NCBI GenBank assembly: GCA_003152215.1
Contig: PLZP01000120.1
Location: forward strand, 1-33,955
Direction of reading: 5' to 3'
Origin: Acidimicrobiaceae bacterium
GTDB lineage: Bacteria > Actinomycetota > Acidimicrobiia > Acidimicrobiales > RAAP-2
DNA: 33,955 bases
The notes under the pieces are model-generated. The model saw nothing but the letters and a program-made list of their open reading frames with translations. It did no database searches and was not told the origin of the DNA. Positions 7,017 through 30,737 of this stretch are shown here, piece after piece; within the stretch, counting starts at the first letter, position 1; the number at the start of each line of letters is the position of its first letter. Both the position numbers and the translations under genes were made by a program.

Positions 7017-7021
7017 GGTGA

Positions 7022-7043: not shown

Positions 7044-7046
7044 CTG

Positions 7047-7052: not shown

Positions 7053-7068
7053 CTCCCTAGAGAACATT

Positions 7069-7085
7069 TGTTCGCACAACGAACA
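7069..7085. promoter_or_regulatory. TGTTCG-N5-CGAACA dyad, candidate IclR operator
   Basis: A perfect 6-bp inverted repeat with a 5-bp spacer between the divergent IclR gene and the dioxygenase operon. Operators of PcaR/PobR-type regulators often carry GTTCG-like half-sites, so it is a good candidate for the site used by the adjacent regulator. Binding is not shown by the sequence alone. Confidence 0.5.
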
Positions 7086-7119
7086 GTTTACTTCGTTGAC
7101 AGAAAAGGGGTACGTGTAT

Positions 7120-7617: not shown

Positions 7618-7632
7618 GGAAGAGAGAAGAAA

Positions 7633-10092: not shown

Positions 10093-10109
10093 CGCAACGT
10101 CGGTGAATA

Positions 10110-11216: not shown

Positions 11217-11218
11217 AC

Positions 11219-12043
11219 ATGATGAGCCCAATTATCTCCTCCGACCGACACCTCGCTGAAGTCCTAGCGAGCTTTGATCAATCCACCAACGCTCGGACTA
11301 CGGAGATCTTGCGCTCCCTAGTGACGCATTTGCACTCATTCGTTACCGAGACCGGTCTCACCCGTGAGGAGTGGATGGCCGGCATTGATTTCCTCACTGC
11401 GACCGGTCGTGCAACCACTGAACATCGCCAAGAGTTCATTCTGCTGTCCGACACGCTCGGCGTTTCGATGCTCGTTGAAATGGTTAATCAGCACGCCTCT
11501 GATGGTGCTACGGAGCCAACGGTGTTCGGTCCGTTTTACCTCCCCAATGCACCGAGATTCGCAATGGGTCAATCCATTGCGCCCGAGGGAACGACCAGTG
11601 AAGAGATTGTAATTTCTGGAGCGGTGCGGACCTCCAACGGCGAACCACTCAGTAACGCACTCTTGGAGGTTTGGCAAGTCATGCCAAACGGTCTGTACGA
11701 CGTACAGGACCAGTCAATCGAAGGCGTGAGCCATCGCGGAATTTTCCGCACCGGCGATGACGGTCGTTACGAGTTTCGAACCACAGCACCCGTCGACTAT
11801 CAAATCCCCACCGATGGACCGGTCGGCGAGATGCTTCGGGTCACCGGTCGATCGTCTTGGCGTCCGGCCCACATCCACTTCATGGTGTCGCATCCCGGCT
11901 TCAGGACCGTAATCACGCACGTTTTTGACGAAAACTCCCCTTGCCTAGAAAACGATGCCGTATTCGGCGTTCGGGATTCGCTAGTCGTTGAATTCACGAC
12001 GGTCGGAGCCTCCTTCGACTTCGTGTTGGATTTCGACTCGTAA
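11219..12043 (+). CDS. Hydroxyquinol 1,2-dioxygenase (intradiol)
   Basis: 274 residues from ATG 11219; a second ATG follows at once. It starts two bases after the reductase stop. An N-terminal helical dimerisation domain (about 1-100, 'LGVSMLVEMVNQ') is followed by the intradiol beta-sandwich beginning 'TVFGPFYLPNAPRF'. The four Fe(III) ligands are in place: Tyr160 ('NGLYDVQD'), Tyr194 ('VDYQIPTDGPVG'), His218 and His220 ('RPAHIHFMVS'). Proteins of this length with the 'GPFY' and 'SWRPAHIHF' wording are mostly hydroxyquinol rather than catechol dioxygenases. The enzyme converts 1,2,4-trihydroxybenzene to maleylacetate and gives the operon a second entry point. Last gene of the operon. Confidence 0.9.
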   Translation: MMSPIISSDRHLAEVLASFDQSTNARTTEILRSLVTHLHSFVTETGLTREEWMAGIDFLTATGRATTEHRQEFILLSDTLGVSMLVEMVNQHASDGATEPTVFGPFYLPNAPRFAMGQSIAPEGTTSEEIVISGAVRTSNGEPLSNALLEVWQVMPNGLYDVQDQSIEGVSHRGIFRTGDDGRYEFRTTAPVDYQIPTDGPVGEMLRVTGRSSWRPAHIHFMVSHPGFRTVITHVFDENSPCLENDAVFGVRDSLVVEFTTVGASFDFVLDFDS

Positions 12044-12253: not shown

Positions 12254-12571
12254 TCAAGAATTCAAAGGCACCGTCTCGTCCAAATCGTCAATCAGGCGAT
12301 ACGTCGCATCTCCAACCACCGCATTGATTTGGAGTTGACCGCCGAGCGCATGTACATATTTCGCGATTGAAGACAGTCGCAAATCATCACTGCGCTCAAG
12401 TTGTGACACATTCGGCTGAGAAGTGCCTAGTAATTCGGCCAACTCGACCTGGCTTTTGCCGAGCTGTTCTCGCAGAATCGCCAGACGCAACTGCAGTCGC
12501 TCTCGTGCGACCATCTGTTCGTCAACATCGAGACGGCTGCGCACCTCTTGCCACTTGTATGTCTTTGGCAT
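12254..12571 (-). CDS. higA: HigA-type antitoxin with XRE helix-turn-helix
   Basis: 105 residues. ATG 12571 shares one base with the end of the toxin frame, so the two are translationally linked. Residues about 39-62 form a Cro/C1 helix-turn-helix ('GKSQVELAELLGTSQPNVSQ'). The C-terminal tail is acidic ('RLIDDLDETVPLNS'), as in antitoxins that wrap their toxin. Toxin first and antitoxin second is the order typical of HigBA. The protein should bind the toxin and repress the shared promoter at the inverted repeat 12933-12966. It lies at the right end of the island, where a stabilising module would be expected. Confidence 0.85.
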   Translation of the reverse strand: MPKTYKWQEVRSRLDVDEQMVARERLQLRLAILREQLGKSQVELAELLGTSQPNVSQLERSDDLRLSSIAKYVHALGGQLQINAVVGDATYRLIDDLDETVPLNS

Positions 12572-12942
12572 CAGATCAATCCTTCCTTCCGAATTACGTC
12601 CAGGTATTCGTCATAAAGGTCATCGGCCAGCGGAACGTTTCGTTCATACCAGCCGTCCCAATCGTTGGTCTTGTCGCCGCCAAGCAAGATGATCGCCGTG
12701 CGCCGTGGATCGAAACAGAACAGAGCGCGAAGGTTTCCGCCAACCGAGCGAAGTTCTTTCATGTTGTGGTGTCGGGCATCTTGAATTGAATCCACTGCAG
12801 GTCGCCCCAAATTCGGTCCGTATTGCTCCAGGAGATCGATCGCCCCGGCAATCGCAGCGCGATCTGTTTGGTCTAGCGAAAGGAGCCATTCGGTTGCCTG
12901 GTCGGTGAGTTCGATTTCCCACACCATTCGAGTATAAGTCAT
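12571..12942 (-). CDS. higB: HigB-type toxin, phage Gp49-like RelE superfamily
   Basis: Up to 123 residues from ATG 12942; ATG 12927 (MVWEIELTDQ) would give 118. The fold signature is that of Gp49-like HigB toxins: 'EWLLSLDQTDRAAIAGAIDL' near the N-terminus, 'MKELRSVGGNLRALFCFDPR' at about 66-85, then 'TAIILLGGDKTNDWDGWYER'. Such toxins are ribosome-dependent mRNA endonucleases. The downstream antitoxin overlaps by one base. The operator-like inverted repeat covers the first start codon, and no strong ribosome binding site precedes either start, so translation may be from a leaderless message or from the later start. The pair is complete and looks intact. Confidence 0.85.
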   Translation of the reverse strand: MTYTRMVWEIELTDQATEWLLSLDQTDRAAIAGAIDLLEQYGPNLGRPAVDSIQDARHHNMKELRSVGGNLRALFCFDPRRTAIILLGGDKTNDWDGWYERNVPLADDLYDEYLDVIRKEGLI

Positions 12943-13451: not shown

Positions 13452-14609
13452 CTACGACGAAGCGGCGTTGAGTCGATACAGATCGACAGCGTTCGCGCGA
13501 CCCACTTTGGTGGCGACGTCAATCGCGTCCGATAGGCCGCAGTGACCCTCGTCGACCCAACTAGAAAGCAACGCAGTGACGCCGTTTCGCCAGAGCCTCG
13601 CCCCCAGGTAGTGAAACTCCGCGAGGCCCCATCCGTCACTCGAGTAGAGCTGCTTATAGAACGGCGCGATCTCGAAGGACTCGGCGATCAACTGTCGCGA
13701 CTGCACGCCGGTGTAGTTGATGCCCTCGCCGACGTCAAAATACACGTTCGGGAACATTTGAGCGAGGTACGCCGCCTCGCGCTGGTAGGGGTAACAGTGA
13801 AGCAGTACCACAGCCGTGCCGAGCGGCTCGACCGCGCGCAGAAAGTCCGTCAGATACGCCGGGTTCGAACGGATGATGTCCAAGTCGGAGTCACCGTAAC
13901 CGGTGTGAATCTGCACTGGCAGTTTCGCGTCGACGCCACTCCAGAGCAGGAACGACAACAGCACCGGGTCGTCGACGCGTACGGTCTTGGATGATTCGAC
14001 GTTGCGCAACCAGTTGACCATCGCGGTCTCGACGTCTTGCGCCGACGGCCGTTCGTGCGGAACGTCGAGTCCGTAGCGATACGCGGCGATGCTCTTGGTC
14101 GCGACCGCGCCCTTTGAGAGGCGCTGCTGCAACATCGCACGGAACTCGTCGGCGAAGCCCTCCGCCGTCGTACCGGCGCGCACGATGTCCTCGGCGACCG
14201 CTTCGAGGCGCACCACCTCGAAACTTCTCGCGCCGCAGAACTCTCGCATCTCGTCGACATCGAGCAAATCCTCGGCCGCAAAACCCGTATCGACCAACAC
14301 CGTATCCAGGTTGGCAGCGGTGAGCAGACGTCGATTGACCTCGTCGGCACCGAGCGCTGTTCGGCGCTGCAGATAGGTCTCGGGATCGACGAAGACGTCG
14401 AGATCGAGCAGCGGCGCGCACCACCGACGAATCGCCAGTCCCAACTGCGTGTCGAAGTTCGTCGTGCCCGGCCGGCGAGGCCGATCGGACTCGGTCATGA
14501 CCTGTTCGAACACATCTCTGCTCAACGTCGATTTGAGCGCGCCGTGAACGTGGTGATCGACAAGTCGAAGATCTTCGACGACCTCGCGCACGTGGGGGTT
14601 ACTGGTCAT
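13452..14609 (-). CDS. FluG-like amidohydrolase (Amidohydro_2, TIM barrel)
   Basis: 385 residues from ATG 14609, with GTG one codon upstream as an alternative; GAGAATGAG precedes them. It begins with the metal motif 'LVDHHVHGAL' (H-x-H near residues 20-22). The barrel continues with 'LPVQIHTGYGDSDLDIIRSN', 'VVLLHCYPYQREAAYLAQM', 'FPNVYFDVGEGINYTG' and the late Asp in 'QLYSSDGWGLAEFHYLGARL'. This wording is characteristic of the amidohydrolase half of FluG and of separate actinobacterial relatives found beside glutamine synthetase genes. It probably hydrolyses an amide, perhaps a gamma-glutamyl amide. It is the last gene of a leftward operon with an aminotransferase and a permease; two synthetase paralogues lie nearby. 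Substrate unknown. Confidence 0.8.
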   Translation of the reverse strand: MTSNPHVREVVEDLRLVDHHVHGALKSTLSRDVFEQVMTESDRPRRPGTTNFDTQLGLAIRRWCAPLLDLDVFVDPETYLQRRTALGADEVNRRLLTAANLDTVLVDTGFAAEDLLDVDEMREFCGARSFEVVRLEAVAEDIVRAGTTAEGFADEFRAMLQQRLSKGAVATKSIAAYRYGLDVPHERPSAQDVETAMVNWLRNVESSKTVRVDDPVLLSFLLWSGVDAKLPVQIHTGYGDSDLDIIRSNPAYLTDFLRAVEPLGTAVVLLHCYPYQREAAYLAQMFPNVYFDVGEGINYTGVQSRQLIAESFEIAPFYKQLYSSDGWGLAEFHYLGARLWRNGVTALLSSWVDEGHCGLSDAIDVATKVGRANAVDLYRLNAASS

Positions 14610-14627
14610 CACTCATTCTCGTCGCTC

Positions 14628-15983
14628 CTACCAGCCCGCGTAGGCGGCCACTACGTCAGCGGGCACCTTGCCCGCAGCGGCGTCGTCGATAGCGGTCCCG
14701 ATTATCTCAACCGCCCGGTCAACTTCGGCGTCGGTGATCACGAGCGGTGGCGTCACCTCAAGGACGTTGCCGCCAACGTAGTAGACAACCACACCGAGCT
14801 CGAAGGCTCGATAGACCGTCGCCGCCGCCAGTTTCCCGTCGGGCGTCCTACTTTCTCGATCGACGACCAACTCGACCCCGTTAGCGAGACCGTGACCCCG
14901 GACGTCGCCCACGCGTTCGTTGTCCAGTGCCCTTAGTCCCGCGCGCAGTCGTTCGCCAGCCCGACGAGCGCGCTCGGGCAGCTCTTCTTCTTGAAGTATT
15001 CGCAGCACCGTGCGACCAACTGCGGTGCAGATGGGGTTGCCGGCGGTCGTGAGCAGTGCCGCGGCCGACGGACCGTCCAGGACTGAGGCTGGACCAACGG
15101 CCGCCGAGAGTGGCAGACCGTTGCCGAGGACCTTGCCGAAACAGACCAGATCGGGGGTCGCGCCATCGAGTTGGTAGGCGTGCATCATGCCTGGTCGACC
15201 GAGTCCGACCTTCACTTCGTCACAGACCAGCAGCGTGTCGTAGCGACGACAGAGCTCTTCGAGACCTCTCAGGAACCCCGGCGGCGGCACCACCATGCCC
15301 CCGTCGGCGAGGATCGGCTCGGACATTACGCAGGCGACGTCACCCTTGGCGAGCTCCTCCTCCACCTGGGCTAGCGACGCGCGCAACGCCGCTTCGGGAC
15401 CGGACGGATCGGTACTCGGTGGCCGGTAAGGATTGGGGTAGTCGACGAAGGTCATCAGGGGATCAGCGCTTACCGATCCGGCTTCGACGTGGACACCTGA
15501 AGCCGCCATCGCGACGCCGATACCCCCGTGGTACGAGTGGTGGAAACCCAGTATGCGATGCTTGCCCGTCGCGAAGCGCGCGGCGCGAATCACGACGTCG
15601 CAGGCGTCGCTGCCGGCGTGTCCTAGGTAGACCCGTCGATCACCCGAACCGGGCACGATCGCCAGGAGGTCCTCGGCGAGTCCCACTGAATCGGGATGCG
15701 CCGCGGACAGTCCGCCGGCACCCGGAGGGTTTTTCGCCGCCTTCACCATGGCTTCGACGACACGGTGATGTCCGTGACCCAAGCCCGCGGCGGTCCACGT
15801 TGCGCTCAGGTCGAGCAACTCGCGGCCGCCCGCTTCCACGAGCGTGCAGCCGTGTCCCGACTCAATCGCGAGTGGGAAGAAACGAAGTTTCTCTATACCC
15901 GCGACCGACTTCAGGTCGCGGGTATAGAGATCCTTCGCTCGGGGGTCTAGGTGGTCCAAACCCGGCGGGATGTTGACCGTCAT
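14628..15983 (-). CDS. Class III PLP aminotransferase
   Basis: 451 residues from ATG 15983, sharing one base with the stop of the permease (TAATG). PLP fold type I, class III: 'GHAGSDACDVVIRAARFATG' (phosphate site region), 'HHSYHGG', Asp255 in 'LLVCDEVKVGLGRPG' and Schiff-base Lys284 in 'CFGKVLGNGLPLSA'. These enzymes transaminate omega-amino groups (polyamines, 4-aminobutyrate, beta-amino acids) or related amino acids, and some relatives are mutases or racemases. Between a permease and an amidohydrolase it suggests an imported amine or amino acid as substrate. Residues 18-32 are encoded by a perfect 17-bp inverted repeat (15890-15930), which could fold in the mRNA just after the start. Exact substrate unknown. 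Confidence 0.85.
   Translation of the reverse strand: MTVNIPPGLDHLDPRAKDLYTRDLKSVAGIEKLRFFPLAIESGHGCTLVEAGGRELLDLSATWTAAGLGHGHHRVVEAMVKAAKNPPGAGGLSAAHPDSVGLAEDLLAIVPGSGDRRVYLGHAGSDACDVVIRAARFATGKHRILGFHHSYHGGIGVAMAASGVHVEAGSVSADPLMTFVDYPNPYRPPSTDPSGPEAALRASLAQVEEELAKGDVACVMSEPILADGGMVVPPPGFLRGLEELCRRYDTLLVCDEVKVGLGRPGMMHAYQLDGATPDLVCFGKVLGNGLPLSAAVGPASVLDGPSAAALLTTAGNPICTAVGRTVLRILQEEELPERARRAGERLRAGLRALDNERVGDVRGHGLANGVELVVDRESRTPDGKLAAATVYRAFELGVVVYYVGGNVLEVTPPLVITDAEVDRAVEIIGTAIDDAAAGKVPADVVAAYAGW
15890..15930. repeat. Perfect 17-bp inverted repeat inside the aminotransferase gene
   Basis: TCTCTATACCCGCGACC (15890-15906) and GGTCGCGGGTATAGAGA (15914-15930) are exact complements around the 7-base loop GACTTCA. 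The repeat lies 53-93 bases after the start codon of the leftward gene. The mRNA hairpin would be strong and GC-rich at its loop end. It has no U-tract. Confidence 0.85.
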
Positions 15984-17500
15984 TACACCTCGGGAGTGGG
16001 GAAGGGACTCTGACCATGACCGCTCGACGCCGGAAACTCTCGACTCTCAGGTTCGCGCAAGTTCCTCGAAAGACCGATACCCACTTTGCTCGCGAGGCCC
16101 GGGAAGCCCAGTGTGATGATCAGCCCGACCAGCATGATCGCTCCCGCGAGGAACGGTTCGGCGATCCAGTTCGTCTGGCCCTTCACGTTGAAGTAGAAGA
16201 CGGCGATGATCATCGCCGCGCCCAGGACCGGGAAGATGATCTCATAGATGATCTCCCTTCGATCTCGAACGAGGTGCACCATCGTGCCGACCTCCACCAT
16301 CAAGTACGAGACCATCAACGTCATCGCACCCACGGTGGCGAAGTAGAAGTACGAGTTCAGCGCGTCGTTGCCGGTACCCACGTTCGGGTGACCGGTAACG
16401 AACGAGATGTAGTCCACCACCGCGATGAGACCAAACACCGCAACCAGCGCCTTCACTGGCTGATTGCGCTTCTCGTCCAGTTCGGCCCACTGACGCGGCC
16501 CGAGTCCATCACGGGAGAAGGCGTAGAGCAGGCGACCCGACGTCCCAGCCGAGCCCAAGAAGCAGGCGAAGGCCGACATGACGGCCGTGAAGGAGAGGAC
16601 CAGCGAGAACCAGAGTCCGACGTAGGTGTGGCCCAACGTCGCAATTGAGTTGCCCGACGTCGAGAACGCCTTGATCCCCGCGGCAGTAGTGCCAAAACCT
16701 ATTGTCTGAGCGAACATCACCAAGATGAACAAGACGCTCGTACCCAAGACGCAACCGAGCAACGCCTTCGGGATGTTCTTCGCGGGATTATCCGTCTCCT
16801 CACCGAGTGACGCGCACGCTTCAAAACCTGCCCACGACAAGAAGGCCGCCACTACGGCGCCCATGATCGTCGTGAAACTCGTGCCCTTGGGATTGAAGGT
16901 GCTGAAGTTAAAGCCCCCGCCGTGCGCGGCTCCGCCCTTAGCGAAAATCACGATGATGAGGATCGTCATGGAAATGACACCGATTGTCTCGATCACCAGA
17001 AGTATCCGTACGACGTTCTTGAATTCGCGCGTCACGAGGTACCCGGCGATCAAGAACGCTCCCGCGCCGCTGTAGACCCACGGTATCTGAAATGGGTGCA
17101 GCGAACTACTCTGCACGTTCGCCAAGAACGCGTTGACGAAGCTACCCACCGCGCCGAGACACGCGATCGCGAAGAGCACGTACGTCACCATGATGCCGTA
17201 GCCCGAGAAGAAACCGGCCCTCGGTCCGACCGTCGATCCGACCAGGGCGTATGCGCTGCCAGCCTGATTGAAGCGCTGAGTCAGTCGGAAGAATCCGTGC
17301 GCGATGAGCGCGATACCGATCGCGCCCAGTAGGAAGATCAGCGGCACCGCCTTGCCAACTGCGGCGGCCGTACCCTGTCCGTTGCCGGACATGGCCAGGC
17401 TCGGACCGACGATACCAAGGGAAAGACCGATGGCCCCCCACATCTTGAGATTTCGCCGGGGCCGCGCGTACGGTGCCACCTCGTTTGTCTGTGTACTCAT
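15983..17500 (-). CDS. APC-family amino acid/polyamine permease
   Basis: 505 residues from ATG 17500 with a clear AAGGGGGAG ribosome binding site. About twelve hydrophobic segments are visible, from 'MWGAIGLSLGIVGPSLAMSG' near residue 20 to 'FLAGAIMLVGLIITLGFPG' near 460. APC hallmarks include the unwound first helix with 'GPSLAMSGNGQG' and 'SWAGFEACASLGEETDNPAK' (about 220-240), the conserved loop of amino acid and amine porters. It sits in the inner membrane and probably imports the amine or amino acid used by the enzymes encoded downstream. It is the first gene of the operon, followed by the aminotransferase and the FluG-like amidohydrolase, with a long 5' region before it. Substrate not deducible. 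Confidence 0.88.
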   Translation of the reverse strand: MSTQTNEVAPYARPRRNLKMWGAIGLSLGIVGPSLAMSGNGQGTAAAVGKAVPLIFLLGAIGIALIAHGFFRLTQRFNQAGSAYALVGSTVGPRAGFFSGYGIMVTYVLFAIACLGAVGSFVNAFLANVQSSSLHPFQIPWVYSGAGAFLIAGYLVTREFKNVVRILLVIETIGVISMTILIIVIFAKGGAAHGGGFNFSTFNPKGTSFTTIMGAVVAAFLSWAGFEACASLGEETDNPAKNIPKALLGCVLGTSVLFILVMFAQTIGFGTTAAGIKAFSTSGNSIATLGHTYVGLWFSLVLSFTAVMSAFACFLGSAGTSGRLLYAFSRDGLGPRQWAELDEKRNQPVKALVAVFGLIAVVDYISFVTGHPNVGTGNDALNSYFYFATVGAMTLMVSYLMVEVGTMVHLVRDRREIIYEIIFPVLGAAMIIAVFYFNVKGQTNWIAEPFLAGAIMLVGLIITLGFPGLASKVGIGLSRNLREPESREFPASSGHGQSPFPTPEV

Positions 17501-17803
17501 GCTCCCCCTTAAACTGTGTGCTCGAACCCGAGCGGTTAGTTGATCAACATCTCTCTATTCGTTACGACTTCGTTGCCCTGCTCACTCTTTATGTCGGCTC
17601 GACAAAGCGCCCCCTCTACGATTTCTTTACGAACCGTTCGGTGATTTCCACTCGTCCTTCGTCGACACACGACGTATCGACCGTCGACTCGTCTCGTCGC
17701 GCGTGACCCCGCGTCAGTGGGTCAACACGACTACTCATCCATCACCCCCTCGACCGATCCTCAACGCCTCAGTACTGCAAATGATTAGTCGTAAATTGGA
17801 CGT
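17501..17803. other. Long upstream region of the permease operon
   Basis: About 300 bp without a gene. It contains the perfect palindrome GTTGATCAAC (17539-17548), about 40 bp upstream of the permease start, and a small TGACCC/GGGTCA dyad (17704-17724). Both are candidate operators. I cannot point to a secure -10/-35 pair. Confidence 0.45.
17539..17548. promoter_or_regulatory. GTTGATCAAC palindrome upstream of the permease
   Basis: A perfect 10-bp palindrome 39-48 bp upstream of the permease start codon. GT...AC palindromes of this sort are common operators of GntR-family regulators, and a GntR/FCD regulator is encoded at 29987-30688. The link is inferred. Confidence 0.35.
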
Positions 17804-17847
17804 TAATGGTATACCGCACTGAATGCAAGGAGGAATTCTGGGGTGCA
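17804..17847 (+). promoter_or_regulatory. Repeated 44-bp element, copy A
   Basis: One of three near-identical elements (39/44 to copy B, 38/44 to copy C). In order: TAATGGTATACC (GntR-like GGTATACC palindrome and an extended -10, TGG-TATACC), CTGAATGCAAG, the Shine-Dalgarno-like AAGGAGGAATTCTG, then GTG (17843) followed by a His codon. Reading rightward, the frame from GTG 17843 begins MHANGELDFDYF and runs into the antisense of the glutamine synthetase gene. The element points away from the permease operon that starts 304 bp to its left. Confidence 0.7.
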
Positions 17848-17986
17848 TGCCAATGGGGAACTTGACTTTGATTATTTCAAAATCGCCGAAATCCATTGGC
17901 TCAATTTCAATGTTCGAACGTCCGGGGCACCTTGGGCGAGAGGGGATCAGGCGCTCTCGATTCGTCGGCTCGTCGCAGGGAAGGAA

Positions 17987-19351
17987 CTACGCCGACCACG
18001 CGTAACGAAACTTCTCCACCAACGCGTCCATCGTCTCTTCTTTGGCGATCTCCGCTTCGTGACCGCGCACCGCGACCATGGCGTCGACGAGCACGTCACC
18101 GAGGACGTCGCGAACTACCTGACTCGACTGCAGTGCTTCGATGTTTGTGATCTGGTCAGCACCAATCGAGACGATGTGGTGCAACGCGCGTTCGCCGTCG
18201 CTCATTGAACCGGGATCGCTCGAGACTTCATCCGGGAGTTCCAACGCTTCTTCCATTCCCCTTCGACTCAGCCCGAGAATCAACGCCGTCGCACTGTAGG
18301 GATTGGCCGAGTGGTCAATGCACTTGATCTCGAGGTTCGCCCCGCGGGGATTACCCGGCGTCGCTCCACACAACCGCAACGCCGCCTCCCTGTTGTCGAG
18401 TCCCCAACAGGCGAAGGCTCCCGACCAGTGACCCGGTTGCAGTCGTGTCGACGACAAGAGCGAGGGTGCGAGGACTCCCATACTCTCGGGGAGCCACTTC
18501 ACCAGTCCGCCAATGACGGACCCGCCACTACTTGTGAGTCCGTGAGGTCCCGGCCCGCCTGAGAACAGTGGCTCGCCGCTTCGCGTATAGGAGATATGCA
18601 AGTGAGCGCCGTTGCCAATGCCGTCCACCAGCGGCTTCGGTGAGAACGAGAGCTTGACGCCGTGGGCGCGCGCGATGCGGCCGAGCACGACGCGCGCCAA
18701 CACGTAATTGTCGGCCGCCTGTAGGGGCGGCGCGGGCTCAGTCGTGAGTTCGATCTGGCCGAGTCCGTACTCGGCGTGGACCTGTTCGAGTTTCAGGCCC
18801 GCGAAGGCGAAGGACTCGTGCACGTCGTCGAGAAACTTCGAGCGGTCGAGCAGTGGCCCGAGTCCGTACGCCGGTCCCCCACCCACGAGCCCCGTGACGG
18901 GGTCGAAGCACGTGAACTCAATCTCGAAGGCCGCGAGCGCCTCCACGCCGCTCGCCTCGAGGTCGGCCTGGTGTCGGCGTAACACGCCCCGAGCGCAGTG
19001 AGCGAGGGGCTCGCCCTGTTGGTCCGCCAATTCGATGGGCGCCCACGCGACGCCCCCTCCGAGATTTCGAACCGCTTCGAGGTCAACGCGCAGTCGCATG
19101 TCCCCGACGACCGAAAACGCGGGCGTCAGGACCAAGAGATCGTCAGCCGCGAAGACGGCCCACGACGGCGCCGCGCCCAGTCCCGGTGAGTGAAACGACC
19201 CCACCTTGGACGCCGGCACCTGCTTGGCCCGAAAGACGCCCGAATTATCGACGAACGTTCCAATGACGATGTGGACGCCGACGTCCTCCAACTCGCGCGT
19301 CACGCGCGAGACCACATTTGCGTTGAGGCGCGAAAGGACCGGCTCCGTCAT
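17987..19351 (-). CDS. Glutamine synthetase-like ligase 1 (gamma-glutamylamide synthetase type)
   Basis: 454 residues from ATG 19351; the frame is open further upstream but that part has no family similarity. The beta-grasp domain begins with 'VGVHIVIGTFVDNSGVFRAK' (the D-x-x-G-x-x-R-x-K line of the family). The catalytic domain shows 'AFEIEFTCFDP' (metal Glu pair), 'GLGQIELTTEP', 'GNGAHLHISY', 'DNREAALRLCG' and 'NLEIKCIDHSANPYSATALI'. These belong to the GlnA-related group that includes FluG, PuuA and IpuC. That group ligates glutamate, or in some members another acid, to an amine using ATP. The nearby FluG-like amidohydrolase, aminotransferase and permease favour amine capture. It lacks an obvious binding site and may be leaderless. 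Confidence 0.85.
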   Translation of the reverse strand: MTEPVLSRLNANVVSRVTRELEDVGVHIVIGTFVDNSGVFRAKQVPASKVGSFHSPGLGAAPSWAVFAADDLLVLTPAFSVVGDMRLRVDLEAVRNLGGGVAWAPIELADQQGEPLAHCARGVLRRHQADLEASGVEALAAFEIEFTCFDPVTGLVGGGPAYGLGPLLDRSKFLDDVHESFAFAGLKLEQVHAEYGLGQIELTTEPAPPLQAADNYVLARVVLGRIARAHGVKLSFSPKPLVDGIGNGAHLHISYTRSGEPLFSGGPGPHGLTSSGGSVIGGLVKWLPESMGVLAPSLLSSTRLQPGHWSGAFACWGLDNREAALRLCGATPGNPRGANLEIKCIDHSANPYSATALILGLSRRGMEEALELPDEVSSDPGSMSDGERALHHIVSIGADQITNIEALQSSQVVRDVLGDVLVDAMVAVRGHEAEIAKEETMDALVEKFRYAWSA

Positions 19352-19497
19352 GAGCGCCAAACTAGCAAGGACGCCGACGAGGTGACCAGTCGAGATTGCT
19401 TTGCTCCATTGTGGCCGAAATATAACATTGCAATCGCGAGAGCCGTCGCTCAGGAGTGGGGCGACGGTGCTACGTTCACCACGCGAAGGAGACGCCG

Positions 19498-19571
19498 TGC
19501 GCGACAGAACCAAGAGCGGAGACGTCCACCAGCGTCCAACAGGTGTTCGACCAAATCGCTTCGCAACGTGA
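19498..19571 (+). CDS. Possible 24-codon leader frame coupled to the decarboxylase
   Basis: GTG 19498 is preceded by a good GAAGGAG at 6 bp, which the decarboxylase start itself lacks. The frame encodes a basic 24-residue peptide beginning MRDRTKSGDV and ends at TGA 19569-19571. That stop overlaps GTG 19568, the proposed decarboxylase start, as GTGA. It could provide translational coupling. Equally, a sequence error could have split a longer decarboxylase N-terminus. No similarity recognised. Confidence 0.35.
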
Positions 19572-21010
19572 TCGAGCGACCACTGCGCGACGACGCACCG
19601 CTGCTCGACGCCTACTTAAGCGCACTCGACGAAGACCGATTTGACTTCATCATTCCCGGTCATAAGCGTCGAGCCGGGTTGCTCGACGAGGGCCTTGGTC
19701 GCGTGGTCGACGCTGACGTGCCACTCTACGGAGGACTCGACACAATTAAGCAGAGCGTCGGCACACTGCACGAGGCCGAGCGCCGCGCCGCGGCATACTA
19801 CGACGCTGACTGGTGCCGGTTCTCCACCGGCGGATCCACGCACACGAATCAGGCACTGGCCCTCGCGCTTGGTCGGCCGGGCGACGTCGTCATCGTGGCG
19901 CGCTCGCTCCATCGCTCGATGTTGCTCGGTCTCGTCCTGGCGGACTTTCGCCCGGTGTGGCTACCCACCCAACTTGACGCCGAGAGCGGGTTACCCGTTG
20001 GCGTCGCAACCGAGGACGTAGCGACCGCCTTGCGGCTGAACCCGCGCGCCGCCGCCTTGATACTGACCGAACCCGGCTACCTCGGCACGACGTCGGACGT
20101 GGCGACCATTAGCGAACTCGCCCATCGCTACGACGTACCCGTGATCGTCGACCAGGCGTGGGGCGCGCACTTTGGTGCACACCCCGATCTACCTCGCCAC
20201 GCGCTCGCCTACGGCGCCGACGCGCTCGTCACCAGCACGCACAAACTCCTCGTCGGCTACAGCCAAGCCAGCGTCGTCGCCGCCAGAACCGAACGCTTGA
20301 ACGTCGACCGATTGAACCGCGGCTTCGACGCGACCCAGACGACGAGTCCTGCGGGCGCCATCCTCGCCAGTAGCGACGCCGCTCGAGCACTCTTAGAGAC
20401 ACGAGGCGTCGAACTCATTGGGCGCGTGCTCTCATTGGTGCGAGCCGCGCGCGAACGCCTTCGAACAGAGGTGCCCGGACTTGTCATACCTGACGAACTT
20501 TCATTCCCGGTCGGTCGTTTCGATCCCACGCGGCTCATTCTCCAATTGGCGCCGATCGGCGCCGACGGCGTCGTGGTCGAACGACACCTTCTAAAGCAGC
20601 ACGTCTCGTTGGAATCGGCCGATCGTGACACGCTGTTGCCCATCATCACGGTGACCGACACCGACGAGAGCCTGACGGCGTTGCTTGACCGACTCGTTCC
20701 CGTGCTCAACGATGCCGTGGGAACGCCACGACGTCGTTCGACCGCGCTCAGCTGGCTCGTCAATCCCGTACAATCACTCAGCCCACGAGAAGCGTTCTTC
20801 GCTCCGCGCGAGCGAGTCGACGCCGCCGAGGCCGTTGGCCGTGTGAGCGCGGAACTCGTGGCCCCGTATCCCCCGGGCGTGCCGGTGCTGGCTCCGGGTG
20901 AAGTGGTCACCCGAGAACTGCTCGACGGACTGCTCGACGCCGCGCGCAGTGGCGTGCGAATTGCCTACGCGGCGGACCCGACCCTGTCAACTATCGAAGT
21001 CGTCGCGTAA
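19568..21010 (+). CDS. Orn/Lys/Arg-type PLP decarboxylase, short form
   Basis: 480 residues from GTG 19568; earlier starts would give an Arg-rich tail without similarity and finally overlap the divergent synthetase gene. Fold type I, group III decarboxylase features: 'DRFDFIIPGHKRRAGLLDEG' near residue 23, 'RFSTGGSTHTNQALALALG' (84-102), 'VIVDQAWGAHFGAHPDLPRH' with Asp195 and His201, and Schiff-base Lys226 in 'TSTHKLLVG'. The C-terminal half is the family's small domain ('PYPPGVPVLAPGE'). The length is that of the wingless actinobacterial and Bacillus SpeA/YaaO-like proteins. It should turn a basic amino acid into a diamine such as putrescine, cadaverine or agmatine. Divergent from synthetase 1 across 216 bp, and upstream of synthetase 2. 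Substrate uncertain. Confidence 0.8.
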   Translation: MIERPLRDDAPLLDAYLSALDEDRFDFIIPGHKRRAGLLDEGLGRVVDADVPLYGGLDTIKQSVGTLHEAERRAAAYYDADWCRFSTGGSTHTNQALALALGRPGDVVIVARSLHRSMLLGLVLADFRPVWLPTQLDAESGLPVGVATEDVATALRLNPRAAALILTEPGYLGTTSDVATISELAHRYDVPVIVDQAWGAHFGAHPDLPRHALAYGADALVTSTHKLLVGYSQASVVAARTERLNVDRLNRGFDATQTTSPAGAILASSDAARALLETRGVELIGRVLSLVRAARERLRTEVPGLVIPDELSFPVGRFDPTRLILQLAPIGADGVVVERHLLKQHVSLESADRDTLLPIITVTDTDESLTALLDRLVPVLNDAVGTPRRRSTALSWLVNPVQSLSPREAFFAPRERVDAAEAVGRVSAELVAPYPPGVPVLAPGEVVTRELLDGLLDAARSGVRIAYAADPTLSTIEVVA

Positions 21011-21074
21011 TGCCCTTCGTGCGTCGTCGTGTCGACAACGCTCGCGTCGAGCGACTGACGAGAAGCCGCCGTGA

Positions 21075-21347
21075 TTAGGTCGTCGGTGGCGGCGGCGGGT
21101 TCCCGAACAGCAGCGCCTTGGCGATGCGAAACGCATCCGCGGTGATCTCGCCTCGGGCGAAGCGTTGTTCCAGCATCCGTAGCGCTCGATTCTCGTGGCC
21201 GTAGACGACACCTTGCAGATTGTAAATCATGCGATGCCGCTCACCTGGGTGGTGAAAGACAAGAAAGACGAGTAAGAAGATGCCGGCCCAGACGACGAGT
21301 ATGACGAAGAGCGACCAGGTCCAGGCGCCGTGACCGACCCCCGGGTT
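21075..21347 (-). pseudogene. SHOCT-domain membrane protein lacking a start codon
   Basis: Reading leftward from the in-frame stop at 21348-21350 there are 90 codons ending at TAA 21075-21077. They encode 'GAWTWSLFVILVVWAGIFLL', a single hydrophobic segment, followed by a C-terminal 'RMLEQRFARGEITADAFRIA' helix pair that is a textbook SHOCT domain, and a proline tail. No ATG, GTG, TTG or CTG lies ahead of the membrane segment. The first ATG (21230) would leave 51 residues without it. The gene thus seems to have lost its 5' end by mutation, or it uses a rare start. It lies between two amine-metabolism genes and downstream of element copy B, which reads toward it. SHOCT proteins often act in membrane oligomers; function here unknown. 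Confidence 0.6.
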
Positions 21348-21493
21348 CTAATATCCGTAGCCCCTCACGGCGACGTGTCCACCTCTAGCAGTACCCCTTG
21401 ACTCGCCGATCGTGAGAACCGAGGATCGACCTGAAGTTCCATTGTGACATCATCAACGGGCGACCGATAATGCGCTTCCGGAGAGACACCGCC

Positions 21494-21514
21494 TTACTTC
21501 TCGCCGAAGTGCAT
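21494..21514 (-). CDS. Six-residue leader frame of element copy B
   Basis: ATG 21514 is preceded by AAGAAGGAA at a normal ribosome-binding distance and is followed by codons for HFGEK and TAA. Whether it is translated is unknown; it is listed because the same context recurs at 17843 and 31943. Confidence 0.25.
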   Translation of the reverse strand: MHFGEK

Positions 21515-21553
21515 GACAGAATTCCTTCTTGCATTCAGTGCAGTATACCATTA
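21510..21553 (-). promoter_or_regulatory. Repeated 44-bp element, copy B
   Basis: Read leftward it is identical to copy C at 41 of 44 positions and to copy A at 39. It has TAATGGTATACT with extended -10 TGG-TATACT, the AAGAAGGAATTCTG stretch, and ATG (21514) followed by a His codon. The frame stops after six residues (MHFGEK, TAA 21494-21496). Its left-hand target is the start-less SHOCT gene. It points away from synthetase 2, whose start is 126 bp to the right. Confidence 0.7.
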
Positions 21554-21678
21554 GCGTCACGTACAGAGTCGAGTTTTCGTCGCACCAAGAGCGACGAGTT
21601 CGATTGACGGGGGTGAGTGGTGAGTAGGCGAAGTGACGCGTCGGCGCGGCAATGCGCCTCATCAGGTGCAGGTACGAG

Positions 21679-23022
21679 ATGAACACGGACACCGCCGCCG
21701 CGTCGAACGACGACCTCGTGCTCGTGGCGACTGCGGACCTCGTGGGTCACGTGCGAGGACGAGCCTTCGGAGCGTCGCAACTCGCCGATCGCTTAGCCCA
21801 CGGTATCGGCTGGGTGCCCGCCGACTTAGCCCTCACGGCATTCGGTGACCTAGCGGCGTCCAACCCCTTCGGCGCGCTGGGCGACCTACGTCTGCGTCCC
21901 GACCCCGCCGCCAGTGTCCACCTTCGGGGGGCCGGCAACGGCCCCAGTGTGCAACTGATCCTCGCGGACATGCTGAACCTCGATCTCACACCCTGGTCGA
22001 GTTGTCCTCGTGACCTCCTTCGTCGCGCGTTAGCGGCACTCAAGAACGAGTTCGGACTCACAATGATCGCCACTTTCGAACACGAGTTCACGCTGCTTAA
22101 CGCCGACGGTTCGGCCAGACCCATTGGTGGCGCACCCTTTAGCGCAGCCGCGCTGCTTAGCGTGGAGCCCTTCGGGTCGCGGCTCTACGCCGCGATCAAG
22201 GGCGCGGGCTTTGAACCCGATACTTGGCTCGCCGAATTTGGACCGAATCAGTTCGAGATCACCCTCGGACCGTGCGACGCGCTCGCTGCGGCGGACCGGG
22301 CCCTCCTACTGCGCGAACTGGTGCGAAACCTCGCCAAGCAGTTCGAGTGGCGCGCCTCCTTCAGCCCGCTCGTCAGTGCAAGGGGTATTGGCAACGGCGT
22401 CCACGTGCATTTCAGTCTGCGCGACGAAGACGGAACGCCAGTCCTCTACGACCCCTCGCAATCCGGCGCCATCAGCGCCGTAGGCGGTTCCTTCGCCGCC
22501 GGGGTTCTCGCGCACGCGTCAGCCGTCTGCGCACTGACGGCGCCGAGTGTCATCTCCTACCTGCGAATGCGCCCACACACCTGGAGTGCCGGTAACGCAT
22601 TCCTAGGACTGCGAAATCGTGAGGCGCTGTTGCGCATCTGTCCCACCGTGGGAGGTGACGATGTCGGGCGACAGTTCAACCTTGAGTTCCGAGCCGCCGA
22701 CGCGACCGCGAACCCTTGGCTCGTCACGGCGGCGCTCGCGATTACCGGTCTGGACGGACTTCGGAGGAACCTCGCCGCGCCACCGGTCGTCGACGGAGAT
22801 CCGGACCGGTGGACGCAAGAGGAGCGCCAAGTTGCGGGCGTCGCCCCACTACCGAGTTCGCTCGACGAGTCCCTCGCGGCACTGACGAACGATGAGATGA
22901 TTTGCGGATGGTTAGGAAACGATCTGCTCGCGACCTTTCTCGCCGTCAAGGAGCACGAACTCGCCGGTCTACGCGACGCCTCAGCCGAGACGATCTGTGA
23001 GCAGTACGCGGGTGCCTATTAG
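21679..23022 (+). CDS. Glutamine synthetase-like ligase 2 (gamma-glutamylamide synthetase type)
   Basis: 447 residues from ATG 21679 (MNTDTAAASN); ATG 21652 is possible but less well spaced. It has the family's order of motifs: 'DLVGHVRGRAF' in the beta-grasp domain, 'IATFEHEFTLLN' and 'EFGPNQFEITLGP' for metal binding, 'GNGVHVHFSLRDEDG', 'RNREALLRICP' and 'FNLEFRAADATANPWLVTAA'. It differs clearly from synthetase 1, so the two probably take different amines or form a specialised pair. The substrate position after 'NLEFR' also differs. It follows the decarboxylase on the same strand after about 670 bp and precedes the M20 amidohydrolase by 69 bp. Probable reaction: ATP-dependent glutamylation of an amine. 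True glutamine synthesis is less likely. Confidence 0.82.
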   Translation: MNTDTAAASNDDLVLVATADLVGHVRGRAFGASQLADRLAHGIGWVPADLALTAFGDLAASNPFGALGDLRLRPDPAASVHLRGAGNGPSVQLILADMLNLDLTPWSSCPRDLLRRALAALKNEFGLTMIATFEHEFTLLNADGSARPIGGAPFSAAALLSVEPFGSRLYAAIKGAGFEPDTWLAEFGPNQFEITLGPCDALAAADRALLLRELVRNLAKQFEWRASFSPLVSARGIGNGVHVHFSLRDEDGTPVLYDPSQSGAISAVGGSFAAGVLAHASAVCALTAPSVISYLRMRPHTWSAGNAFLGLRNREALLRICPTVGGDDVGRQFNLEFRAADATANPWLVTAALAITGLDGLRRNLAAPPVVDGDPDRWTQEERQVAGVAPLPSSLDESLAALTNDEMICGWLGNDLLATFLAVKEHELAGLRDASAETICEQYAGAY

Positions 23023-23091
23023 TGACGACGGCGAGTGTGACCACAACGTCACGACCGCGACGTTGCCACGCACCACCAGGCGTACCCTGAC

Positions 23092-24363
23092 GTGACGTTG
23101 AAGCCTGAGATTCAAAGTTTCGTGGCGTCGGTCAACGAGGCATTGACCACGGAGCTCGCTGACGCCATCGAACTACGTCGACGCATTCATCAAACGCCCG
23201 AGGTTTCGTGGCAGGAACAACAGACCTCGGCGCTCGTCGCCGAAGCGCTCGAGGGTTACACGTTGGAGCGCGTCGCGGAGACGGGACTTCTCGTTCGAGT
23301 GGGCAACGCGGATGCGCTCGCCGTGGGCGTTCGAGCCGAACTCGACGGGTTGCCGATCGTGGAGTTGACCGGTTCGCCCTTTGCCTCGACGAACGGCGCC
23401 ATGCACGCGTGTGGCCACGACGTCCACCTGGCCGCACTGGTGTCGCTACTTCGTGCATTCACCCAGGTCCACAAATCCGCGGCGGCGCCCATCGCGCTGT
23501 TGGGGGTCTTCCAACCGAGTGAGGAGTCGTTCCCGTCGGGCGCGAAAAGGATCATCGAGACCGGCCGCCTCGAGGAGCATCATCTCCAAGCGATGTTGGC
23601 CGTCCATCTCCATCCCCAGGTCCCCTGGGGGGCGATCACCACGGGCGTCGGCGCGGTCAACGCGGGCGCCGACTCGTTCACCTTGACTATCTCGGGTGTC
23701 GGCGGGCACGGCGCCTACCCGCACCGCAGCCACGACCCGGTGCTCGCGCTCAGCCAGGTCATCGTCGCGCTCCAACAAATCGTCAGTCGCCGGACCGATC
23801 CAATGCACCCGACCGTCGTGTCGATTTGCCGTCTGCGTGCCGGCACGGCGTCCAACGTCATTCCCGACGAGGCCGTAGCCGAGGGCACGGTACGCGTACT
23901 CGTACCCGGTGATCGCGACGAAGTTCTCACACTCCTCACGTCCATCGCGTCTCAAACGGCGTCCGCCTTCGGCTGCACGTCGGCGCTCGAGATCCAACAC
24001 GGTGACCCGGTCTTAGTCAACGACGCTCGCCTCGTGACCAGCGTCGATCCGTGGTTGGCGCGTGTCGGCTTCACGGTCGCCGAACCAATGCGTTCGTGCG
24101 GCGCTGACGACTTCGCCTTCTACGGCGCATGTGCCCCGAGTCTCATGATGTTTCTCGGCGTGCAGGGGAGGAATCGCCATATGGACAGCGCGTCGAAGTC
24201 CATCGAAGAGAAGGCCGATGCCTCCGACGTAGAACTCAGTCCGGGACTGCACTCGCCCCTGTTCTTCGTGCCCGATGACGCAGTCGAGCGCACCGCGCGA
24301 GCAATGCTGGCCGCGTTCGCCGGCGCCGCCGAACTCGTGACGGACGAAGGTCGCGACAGATAA
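23092..24363 (+). CDS. M20-family amidohydrolase (hippurate/N-acyl amino acid hydrolase type)
   Basis: 423 residues from GTG 23092. M20D-type metal motifs are present: 'HACGHDVHLAAL' with Cys107, His109 and His112, 'FQPSEESFPSGAKRI' with the catalytic and metal glutamates, and 'AVHLHPQVPWG'. A dimerisation domain follows ('SGVGGHGAYPHRSHDPVLAL'), then 'GADDFAFYGACAPSLMMFLG' near the C-terminus. Such enzymes cleave N-acyl amino acids, hippurate or indole-3-acetyl amides with Mn or Zn. Directly downstream of synthetase 2, it could release the amine or acid from an amide made or imported by this region. It is convergent with the dihydrolipoamide dehydrogenase gene (28 bp gap). Substrate unknown; cytosolic, no signal peptide. 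Confidence 0.85.
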   Translation: MTLKPEIQSFVASVNEALTTELADAIELRRRIHQTPEVSWQEQQTSALVAEALEGYTLERVAETGLLVRVGNADALAVGVRAELDGLPIVELTGSPFASTNGAMHACGHDVHLAALVSLLRAFTQVHKSAAAPIALLGVFQPSEESFPSGAKRIIETGRLEEHHLQAMLAVHLHPQVPWGAITTGVGAVNAGADSFTLTISGVGGHGAYPHRSHDPVLALSQVIVALQQIVSRRTDPMHPTVVSICRLRAGTASNVIPDEAVAEGTVRVLVPGDRDEVLTLLTSIASQTASAFGCTSALEIQHGDPVLVNDARLVTSVDPWLARVGFTVAEPMRSCGADDFAFYGACAPSLMMFLGVQGRNRHMDSASKSIEEKADASDVELSPGLHSPLFFVPDDAVERTARAMLAAFAGAAELVTDEGRDR

Positions 24364-24391
24364 CGCGTCTCAGTCGAGCGCCGACGCTCCC

Positions 24392-25825
24392 TCAACGCGT
24401 ACTGCGTGAACTGTCCTGCGCAAGCACGTGCCTCGCGCGACCGAGCAACATCAGTGCCGCCTCGGACAACGATTCGCTGATCGTTGGATGGGGATGGATG
24501 GTCCCGGCGAGGTCCTCGGGGCTCGCGCCCATCTCCACCGCGAGGGCCGCTTCTCCTGCCAGTTCCGAAACGAGTGGTCCCACGAGGTGCACACCGATCA
24601 CGGTGTCGTGTCCGCGGTCGACAATGAGTCGAGCGAAGCCCTCGCGCGCGCCGAGCGTCGCCGCTCGACCTGATGCGCTCAGGGGGAACTGCGCGACGGC
24701 CACGTCCATGCCAAGCGCGCGAGCGGCTTGTTCGCTTAGCCCGACCGACGCCACCTCGGGATCCGAGAAGACCACCGCCGGTACGACGGTCGGGTCGAAT
24801 CGACGAGTGAGCCCCGAGAGCGACTCGGCCGCAACTTCTGCTTCGGCGGTCGCCTTGTGGGCCAACGCCGGACCGGGAGTGATGTCACCGATAGCGGCGA
24901 TGCCCCGAGCGGCAAGACGATTCGCCTCCACCTGCACGGTCCCGTCACTCGCGAGACGCGCGCCGGTCTTCTCGAGGCCGAGGTCCTTCGTTCGTGGTCG
25001 ACGCCCGATGGCCACCACCACGCGCTGCGCGTCGACGTGACGCTCCACGTCATCGACGCGAACCACTACACCCGCTTCGTCGAGACCAATTATTTCGGCA
25101 TTCAGCACGACCTGCACACCGAGTCGTTGCAGTGATCGCGACACGACACGTCCGATCACCGGCTCCATCGAGGGCAACACGGACCCCAGCGCTTCGACGA
25201 TCGTGACGCGTGTGCCGAGTTTGGCCAGGGCCGTGCCGAGCTCGACACCGATGTAACCGGCGCCGACGACCACGACGCTCGTTGGAAGTTCGCTCATCGC
25301 CAAGACGTCGGTCGAATCAAGCACGCGCACCCCGTCGCGCGCCAGCCCCGCGAGTTCGAGTGGCTCGGACCCGGTCGCGACAACGGCACTTTTGAACTCA
25401 AAGAAGGTCACGTTCCCATCGGGTAGCGCCACGGCGACCCGGTCGGGCTTGTTGAAGGTCGCGCTTCCGGCTACGACGCGCACGCGCTGATGCTCGAGCA
25501 ATGACGCGACGCCGCGCGAGAGACCTTCGACGATCCCGTTCTTCCAGCTCTGAAAGCGGGCAAGATCGACGTCGAGCGCGCCGCCGTGAAGACCTGCGAC
25601 TTCGAGCGCGATTGCCTGGTGACGCGTATTCGCGACCTCGATCAGGGCTTTGCTCGGGATGCACCCCACGCGCACGCACGTGCCGCCGAGTCCGCTGGTG
25701 CCGTCGCGTTCGACGAGGACGACCTCGCGACCAAGTTGCGCTGCGCGCAGCGCGGCGGCGTATCCGCCAGGCCCGCCGCCGACGATGAGCATGTCAATAC
25801 CTTCGGCCATCTCTCCGACGACCAT
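24392..25825 (-). CDS. lpd: Dihydrolipoamide dehydrogenase (E3)
   Basis: 477 residues from ATG 25825, which overlaps the stop of the acyltransferase; ATG 25810 is an alternative. FAD motif 'MLIVGGGPGGYAAALRAAQLG' begins at residue 12. The redox disulfide is Cys50/Cys55 in 'GGTCVRVGCIPSKAL'. The NAD motif is 'VVVGAGYIGVELGTALAKLG' near 185, and the C-terminal interface carries the catalytic His in 'AGTIHPHPTISESL'. It reoxidises dihydrolipoyl groups of the E2 encoded just upstream, passing electrons to NAD. A dedicated E3 in the operon is typical of branched-chain 2-oxoacid dehydrogenase clusters (LpdV). Last gene of the seven-gene leftward operon. Confidence 0.93.
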   Translation of the reverse strand: MVVGEMAEGIDMLIVGGGPGGYAAALRAAQLGREVVLVERDGTSGLGGTCVRVGCIPSKALIEVANTRHQAIALEVAGLHGGALDVDLARFQSWKNGIVEGLSRGVASLLEHQRVRVVAGSATFNKPDRVAVALPDGNVTFFEFKSAVVATGSEPLELAGLARDGVRVLDSTDVLAMSELPTSVVVVGAGYIGVELGTALAKLGTRVTIVEALGSVLPSMEPVIGRVVSRSLQRLGVQVVLNAEIIGLDEAGVVVRVDDVERHVDAQRVVVAIGRRPRTKDLGLEKTGARLASDGTVQVEANRLAARGIAAIGDITPGPALAHKATAEAEVAAESLSGLTRRFDPTVVPAVVFSDPEVASVGLSEQAARALGMDVAVAQFPLSASGRAATLGAREGFARLIVDRGHDTVIGVHLVGPLVSELAGEAALAVEMGASPEDLAGTIHPHPTISESLSEAALMLLGRARHVLAQDSSRSTR

Positions 25826-29116: not shown

Positions 29117-29143
29117 CGTCCCATCTCACTCAGAACGTACTGC

Positions 29144-29920: not shown

Positions 29921-29986
29921 GAACGATCCTCCCTCGTTGTCCCACGTACTACGACGTCCGCCGCCCGTCACTACCGCGGTGTGTTC

Positions 29987-30688: not shown

Positions 30689-30737
30689 CTTCTTCTCCTT
30701 CGACTGGAACGAAACGTCCTCCATCTCGTTCGCCTTT

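Follow-up and report, generated by a model that had tools for sequence, protein, structure and literature searches.

Alpha-amino-epsilon-caprolactam (ACL) racemase (EC 5.1.1.15), known from Achromobacter obae (structures 2ZUK and 3DXV), is a pyridoxal phosphate (PLP) enzyme whose substrates include amino lactams, amino acid amides, esters and homocysteine thiolactone (PMC7431475, PMC11391342). In the papers cited here it is treated as an industrial catalyst, once employed in L-lysine manufacture (PMC7431475). The A. obae enzyme exchanges the alpha-proton of homocysteine thiolactone (PMC11391342), and an O. anthropi homologue racemises esters (PMC7431475). Here we describe a gene cluster of an Acidimicrobiaceae bacterium in which a member of this family is predicted to be one part of a glutamylation cassette. 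The cluster lies on contig PLZP01000120.1 of assembly GCA_003152215.1 (2.65 Mb, 127 contigs); the whole stretch that was analysed, positions 1 to 33,955, is referred to as the window. We tentatively read the cluster as a single catabolic unit that handles alpha-amino amides, with the cyclic amides (lactams) of lysine or ornithine as the most likely substrates; it would be a variant of glutamylation-based amine catabolism in which a racemase is central. A literature search, with most subscription journals outside it, returned no paper that, judged mostly from titles and abstract openings, places ACL racemase in a pathway or describes the cassette.

Several described systems share parts of this gene set. 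FluG of Aspergillus, whose own substrate is unknown (PMC6478659), and the Streptomyces pair SCO6962/SCO6961 (GlnA3 operon, polyamine-induced; PMC5403932) hold the same two enzyme types side by side, including a ligase without the ammonia residues, and neighbouring glutamine-synthetase-like and amidohydrolase genes in bacteria have already been published (PMC6478659). The window shares these FluG-type traits, i.e., a ligase lacking the ammonia flap residue and an amidohydrolase with a complete metal site. Yet FluG is fused in one polypeptide, whereas here the two are separate open reading frames (ORFs) with two genes between them, as expected from the split FluG-type pair of the initial annotation, and a permease, a racemase, a second hydrolase and a decarboxylase are added. 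With the GlnA4 ethanolamine pathway the cluster has the ligase in common, and the Proteobacterial form of the cassette also a PF05013-type hydrolase (SCO1615, listed for gamma-glutamylglycine in the Streptomyces route; PMC9397018); the cassette, however, possesses a racemase instead of an alcohol or aldehyde dehydrogenase at a fixed place. The E. coli Puu pathway follows the same logic of ligase, permease and deglutamylase, but the cluster has no PuuB oxidase, PuuC or PuuD-type hydrolase, and its PLP enzyme belongs to another family; it was rightly set apart from Puu clusters in the initial annotation. In turn, EgtC of ergothioneine synthesis, which cleaves a gamma-glutamyl amino acid, shares its fold and N-terminal Cys with an EgtC-like protein encoded by relatives of the cluster; the two relatives' members that were scored fall far below the EgtC cut-off, and the window carries an M20 enzyme instead.

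All seven genes of the initial annotation were recovered at their coordinates and with their folds by an ORF and Pfam check. The minus strand reads GS1, permease, class-III PLP enzyme, AHY and the plus strand decarboxylase, GS2, M20:

13452-14609, minus strand: AHY, FluG-N-type amidohydrolase, 385 aa (Pfam Amidohydro_2)
14628-15983, minus strand: ACL-racemase-family PLP enzyme, the former aminotransferase, 451 aa (class-III PLP fold)
15983-17500, minus strand: APC-family amino acid permease, 505 aa (Pfam AA_permease)
17987-19351, minus strand: GS1, putative core-cassette gamma-glutamyl ligase, 454 aa (Pfam Gln-synt_C; ATG start chosen)
19352-19567, no strand: divergent intergenic region between the chosen starts of GS1 and the decarboxylase
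19568-21010, plus strand: Orn/Lys/Arg decarboxylase family, short form, 480 aa (Pfam OKR_DC_1 and OKR_DC_1_C; GTG start chosen)
21679-23022, plus strand: GS2, putative PA5508-like gamma-glutamyl ligase, 447 aa (Gln-synt_C)
23092-24363, plus strand: M20 amidohydrolase, proposed deglutamylase, 423 aa (NCBIfam TIGR01891 above cut-off)

The class-III enzyme and the ligases

Judged by its sequence, the class-III gene is a member of the ACL-racemase family and not an aminotransferase, with racemase activity predicted. Among solved structures, its product matches ACL racemase 2zuk (392 bits) and the amino acid amide racemase 6gio (359 bits) best, followed by isoleucine 2-epimerase at 240 bits and a broad-specificity amino acid racemase at about 240, while dialkylglycine decarboxylase (194 bits) and the best 4-aminobutyrate aminotransferase chain (182 bits) stand lower. 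The protein is 45% identical to the A. obae enzyme, with which it shares the fold family, and its nearest named relative (88% identity) is encoded by an Acidimicrobiaceae metagenome-assembled genome (L042). It retains the PLP lysine (K284) together with D227 and K258, which we take to be Asp210 and Lys241 of ACL racemase. Each of the latter two is kept in 88 of 89 aligned sequences, the exception carrying Glu or Gln; these positions hold Glu and Gln in E. coli PuuE and GabT, A/I in the other class-III enzyme of the window, and the Lys position is Ala in one PDB chain compared. The identification as a gamma-aminobutyrate or omega-aminotransferase was rejected on account of this Asp/Lys pair, and the transamination step of the initial annotation is likewise not supported. 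NCBIfam aminotransferase models agree: the best reaches 295 bits against a cut-off of 608, and none of the best 25 of 69 matching models passes. The cassette also includes a close homologue of the biochemically characterised enzyme: on a Shinella plasmid, genes for an RpiR regulator, an isochorismatase, a ligase and an N-formylglutamate amidohydrolase (NFGase) are followed by that of a racemase with 84% identity to the A. obae protein.

Both ligases carry Trp at the flap position, as does PA5508, where glutamine synthetase has the acidic residue used with ammonia (PMC6529630). With this residue absent, GS1 and GS2 are predicted not to be of the ammonia type, as the initial annotation had presumed. 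GS2 is close to PA5508 (4hpp, 369 bits), GS1 distant from it (165 bits).

Recurrence of the gene set and its hydrolases

An alignment of 12 racemases was used to scan named genomes, and the best 80 of 329 relatives, i.e., the closest quarter, were retained; the locus counts below refer to these. Half of these loci (40) belong to Mycobacteriaceae, so that the 80 loci are not 80 independent events; L044 and L047 are, moreover, apparently the same contigs as L027 and L029. A ligase gene was found in 71 loci, a permease in 68, the amidohydrolase in 66, an RpiR regulator in 60 and an EgtC-like gene in 52, followed by the decarboxylase (40), M20 (11), NFGase (4) and isochorismatase (4). The order ligase-permease-racemase-amidohydrolase is collinear in 56 of the 80, and the neighbourhood comparison suggested by the initial annotation thus reveals a recurrent arrangement. 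Two genomes of the same genus show GS1-permease-racemase-amidohydrolase in collinear order, one of them with the decarboxylase alongside. The distribution of the racemase is patchy: it occurs in 3 of 14 listed genomes of the genus, the window's own included, and across the class 4 genomes out of 296 have it at E <= 1e-80.

The cassette is also found on plasmids. We opened 8 of the 82 plasmid records with a racemase match, and all eight contain NFGase and isochorismatase genes and none the decarboxylase; the NFGase genes are so named in their records. The plasmids of Pantoea (L033) and Klebsiella (L034) keep ligase-permease-racemase in the order of the window, accompanied by NFGase and isochorismatase. 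Klebsiella accounts for 45 of the 82 records. A record titled Komagataeibacter xylinus (L088, 422-5900) holds the NFGase form with a permease in a different gene order. Outside the 80 loci, a member of the same class (L032, 5221-9223; racemase 52% identical) shows a gene row that runs from racemase through ligase and amidohydrolase to a divergent M20 and continues into genes of a branched-chain-amino-acid-type ABC transporter. Racemase loci without a ligase (L043, L109, L111, L112) have mixed neighbours, including genes for a transketolase-like protein, transhydrogenase, Wzz/phosphatase, asparaginase, a purine/allantoin-type permease and a peptide-binding ABC protein.

A further regular feature of the set is the choice of one hydrolase out of three. 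At least 6.5 kb before and at least 4.5 kb after the racemase are available in 62 of the 80 loci, 58 of which carry a ligase, and every one of these 58 encodes exactly one of the EgtC-like protein (46), M20 (9) or NFGase (3). In the remaining four of the 62, which lack a ligase, all three hydrolases are absent. Over all 80 loci the assignment is 52 EgtC-like, 11 M20, 4 NFGase and 13 none, with no locus carrying two types; the window has the M20 form. When profile hidden Markov models trained on the same matches were applied to stop-to-stop frames, all 80 loci were assigned as before, and at E <= 0.1 they showed no additional weak matches of the EgtC-like or NFGase type. The M20 locus L119 has an extra M20-type match of 15 bits. 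Calls of M20 absence are less firm than those for the EgtC-like protein and NFGase, since the divergent M20 of L032 scores only 21 bits with the M20 profile. Type changes number 8 on the racemase tree (shuffled mean 21.5) and 7 on the ligase tree; the amidohydrolase tree has 6 changes, a weak result by itself because shuffling gives a mean of 8.5 and a minimum of 6. Fragments were excluded from the trees. The one-of-three choice is a clear-cut example of how unrelated enzymes can substitute for each other at one step. As for the second hydrolase, 54 of the 58 loci have the amidohydrolase, 3 an isochorismatase-type enzyme and 1 neither; an isochorismatase-type amidase thus accompanies 3 of the 4 loci that lack the amidohydrolase, and it is found in all eight opened plasmid loci.

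AHY has 2qpx as its sole PDB sequence match, and its predicted structure (predicted local distance difference test, pLDDT, 94.4) is nearest to 2qpx and then to amidohydrolases of the uronate isomerase type, a likeness that names no reaction. The putative metal ligands H20, H22, K172, H235, H271 and D325, whose roles are assigned from the amidohydrolase fold, are invariant in 14 of 14 aligned proteins (L113 excluded). The M20 enzyme scores 257 bits with TIGR01891 (cut-off 153.75), and the metal-binding motifs CGHD and EE are present in all 11 aligned sequences. The M20 gene of L042 includes a masked stretch and was used unaltered. The EgtC-like protein of the relatives begins with Cys in at least 90% of the 17 members aligned and keeps the class-II glutaminase residues, presumably in their usual roles. 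Its predicted fold (mean pLDDT 89.9) finds EgtC in all 13 best PDB matches, at about 20% identity in the structure alignment, and two members score 49 and 57 bits with the EgtC model (cut-off 218.65). The window's genome has no close EgtC-like gene (best match 22.6 bits, in a 616-codon frame); both genus relatives have one.

A tree of 83 ligases places GS1 with the ligases of EgtC-like-form loci and GS2 with those of the M20 form (support 1.0 with L042 and L107, 0.84 with L120 and L113). The clade joining GS2 to the ligases of 8 of the 11 M20-form loci has a support of only 0.46, and the remaining three (L060, L098, L101) carry GS1-type ligases; the type of ligase does not strictly follow that of the hydrolase. 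From these positions GS2 and M20 look like a second, added unit, and by sequence the window looks like the core of the EgtC-like form plus a ligase-M20 unit of the M20 form. The initial annotation had treated the two ligases as one functional set, which these groupings do not favour.

The decarboxylase, which the initial annotation had counted as part of the cluster, truly belongs to the cassette, being present in half of the loci and in several positions. Among the tracked genes, it comes next after the amidohydrolase in 31 loci. Five loci have it on the opposite side, past the regulator; in two it is flanked by ligases on both sides, the arrangement of the window, and in another two it follows a downstream regulator. 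It is the sole OKR_DC_1 match found in its genome (89.5% complete), and across the order only 7 genomes out of 59 have such a decarboxylase anywhere, counting that of the window, with 6 of the 7 passing the cut-off. His115 and Asp195 are kept in 44 of 44 aligned proteins and Lys226 in 43 of 44, three of the 44 coming from outside the cassette; we take these residues to be the stacking histidine, the pyridine-nitrogen aspartate and the PLP lysine. Its PDB relatives score 96 bits at most.

Other recurrent neighbours of the 80 loci are annotated as transport, regulator, cell-wall and unnamed genes. Six recurrent unnamed ORF families were compared with Pfam: five gave no match and the sixth has an endonuclease/phosphatase domain; several recurrent families antisense over core genes were taken as shadows. 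No redox enzyme has a fixed place in the 80 loci: short-chain dehydrogenase/reductase (SDR) relatives occur near 13, in scattered places, aldehyde dehydrogenase near 4 and iron alcohol dehydrogenase near none. This argues against transamination and Puu-like models, and it also speaks against the simple capture of monoamines put forward in the initial annotation. The latter explanation, modelled on the ethanolamine (GlnA4) or isopropylamine pathways with oxidising enzymes encoded elsewhere, could draw on the closeness of GS2 to PA5508 and on the iron alcohol and aldehyde dehydrogenase genes at 8620-11216 of the window, which belong to families of the GlnA4 route (PMC9397018). Yet these two genes lie among ring-cleavage genes (hydroquinone and intradiol dioxygenases), their relatives are near 0 and 4 of the 80 loci, and the racemase would have no evident role on ethanolamine or isopropylamine; we consider monoamine capture highly improbable.

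A Puu-like polyamine route seems unlikely as well. In it, Lys, Orn or Arg would be decarboxylated and the diamine glutamylated, the PLP enzyme would act on the glutamylated diamine as an omega-aminotransferase and a hydrolase would free the product. It accommodates the linked decarboxylase, the class-III fold of the PLP enzyme and the polyamine-induced GlnA3 operon of Streptomyces, where a ligase is paired with the Amidohydro_2 protein SCO6961 (PMC5403932). However, the PLP enzymes keep the Asp and Lys of ACL racemase where PuuE and GabT have Glu and Gln, aldehyde dehydrogenase relatives are rare around the loci, and 22 of the 58 fully flanked loci combine ligase and racemase without a decarboxylase. 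The same genome, furthermore, encodes a separate permease, C26 hydrolase and ligase on its contig C70. Scores with the NCBIfam model of gamma-glutamylputrescine synthetase, GGputSyn (GS1 227 bits, GS2 273, cut-off 650), are weak evidence at most, as none of 14 control genomes, E. coli included, reaches 650.

A proposed route for amino amides and lactams

The observed gene families, key residues, recurrent linkage and mutual exclusion of the three hydrolases are consistent with the following sequence of steps. The permease would import an amide or lactam of an alpha-amino acid, lysine or ornithine being the probable ones, and the ACL-racemase-family enzyme would interconvert its D and L forms. 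A glutamine-synthetase-like ligase would add a gamma-glutamyl group to the amine, and the FluG-type amidohydrolase would open the amide or lactam to give a gamma-glutamyl amino acid. From this the M20 enzyme, replaced elsewhere by the EgtC-like protein or NFGase, would release glutamate and the amino acid, a role proposed because all three families fit gamma-glutamyl or N-acyl amino acids. Finally, the Orn/Lys/Arg decarboxylase would turn the basic amino acid into a diamine. We infer the substrate, the order of the steps and the assignment of hydrolases to them, and the two hydrolytic roles could be swapped. Ornithine is known to cyclise to its lactam 250-500 fold more readily than lysine (PMC8001834).

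Two other explanations also make use of a racemase. Salvage of free D-amino acids, in which the PLP enzyme would racemise basic amino acids in the manner of its broad-range relatives, the L form would be decarboxylated and the ligase and hydrolases would treat the resulting amine, fits the linked decarboxylase and the fact that isoleucine 2-epimerase and the broad-specificity racemase are the next relatives (about 240 bits). Since the lactam and amide racemases are far closer (392 against 240 bits) and the ligase and two hydrolases are left unexplained where the decarboxylase is absent, this appears distinctly unlikely. In the second, the cassette would detoxify or exploit lactones and thiolactones of amino acids, such as homoserine lactone and homocysteine thiolactone, or esters, as suggested by the thiolactone proton exchange of the A. 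obae enzyme (PMC11391342) and the ester racemisation by an O. anthropi homologue (PMC7431475). This would leave the Orn/Lys/Arg-type decarboxylase, present in 40 of the 80 loci, without a substrate, and we regard it as improbable.

Several points weigh against the lactam and amide cassette itself. The decarboxylase is missing from 22 of the 58 fully flanked ligase-bearing loci and from all eight plasmid loci; a basic amino acid is therefore not always the product. Ligase-amidohydrolase pairs occur without the racemase or the three other hydrolases in L021, L022, L023 and L025 (the last at a contig end), so that release of glutamate may fall to the amidohydrolase and cleavage of the amide to the other hydrolase. 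These pairs come from seven related stretches; of the other three, two (L020, L024) show no more than the amidohydrolase, and L026 matches ligase, amidohydrolase and EgtC-like protein weakly. The NFGase-bearing plasmid locus L036 also has a weak match to the M20 profile (50.8 bits), and the SDR relatives near 13 and aldehyde dehydrogenases near 4 of the 80 loci must be counted here too. No natural source is established that would supply useful amounts of amino lactams, the sequence gives no reason for glutamylation before ring opening, and the sample consists of the best 80 of 329 loci, half of them from Mycobacteriaceae.

A wider claim seems possible but doubtful, namely that Actinobacteria, Rhizobiales and enterobacterial plasmids share a pathway for the recovery of both enantiomers of amino-acid lactams or amides, which would be racemised, gamma-glutamylated, hydrolysed and finally deglutamylated with no oxidation step. 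If true, it would give ACL racemase a natural role and glutamylation chemistry a second use, in which the amine is handled during hydrolysis instead of oxidation. The conserved partner set makes the natural substrate of ACL racemase testable with a handful of purified proteins. The cassette may also bear on the roles of FluG's two halves, because the same pair of ligase and amidohydrolase forms its core.

Flanking genes and other loci

The starts of GS1, the decarboxylase and GS2 were chosen by us. The mechanical decarboxylase ORF opens at 19190, antisense within GS1, and the GTG at 19568 gives 480 aa. The gap at 19352-19567 is likely regulatory. RNA control of the cluster was rejected, as the window has no Rfam match at gathering thresholds. 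The permease and racemase genes overlap at their stop and start.

Candidates for further cassette members were sought on both flanks and rejected. The aldehyde and iron alcohol dehydrogenase genes on the left lie among dioxygenase genes and have relatives near 4 and 0 of the 80 loci. For the genes on the right, relatives were found near 2 (E3), 0 (E2), 0 (E1 beta) and 1 (E1 alpha) loci, and for the FCD regulator and the amino acid dehydrogenase near 0 and 1; the E3 and amino acid dehydrogenase matches include the two sisters of the window. Among the genes at 13452-29116 there is no aldehyde dehydrogenase or C26 domain, and the sole match of the FAD-oxidase type (DAO) is the lipoamide dehydrogenase at 24392.

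The left flank (3383-12043) contains a ring-cleavage set with thiolase, two CoA-transferase subunits, an IclR regulator, a PnpD-type hydroquinone dioxygenase, the two dehydrogenases named above and an intradiol dioxygenase, probably a hydroquinone/hydroxyquinol pathway. It is followed at 12254-12942 by two tandem genes, one for a helix-turn-helix protein and one for a Gp49-like (DUF891) protein, resembling a toxin-antitoxin pair. On the right, 24392-31826 encodes a 2-oxoacid dehydrogenase complex (E3, E2, E1 beta, E1 alpha), an SDR, a GntR/FCD regulator and a Glu/Leu/Phe/Val dehydrogenase-family protein, the latter with one strong model, the tryptophan dehydrogenase ScyB, below its cut-off. 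A class-III aminotransferase at 32067-33479 scores above the PRK06541 cut-off and gives 612 bits with the Streptomyces aminotransferase structure 9gh9.

The statement of the initial annotation that no PuuD is seen holds for the window; the genome, however, does have a PuuD-type Peptidase_C26 gene close to a ligase and a permease. These lie on contig C70 (L132, 2311-7541), where an APC permease, the PuuD-like Peptidase_C26, a cytochrome P450 frame and a glutamine-synthetase-like gene form a group that resembles a glutamylation-oxidation route.

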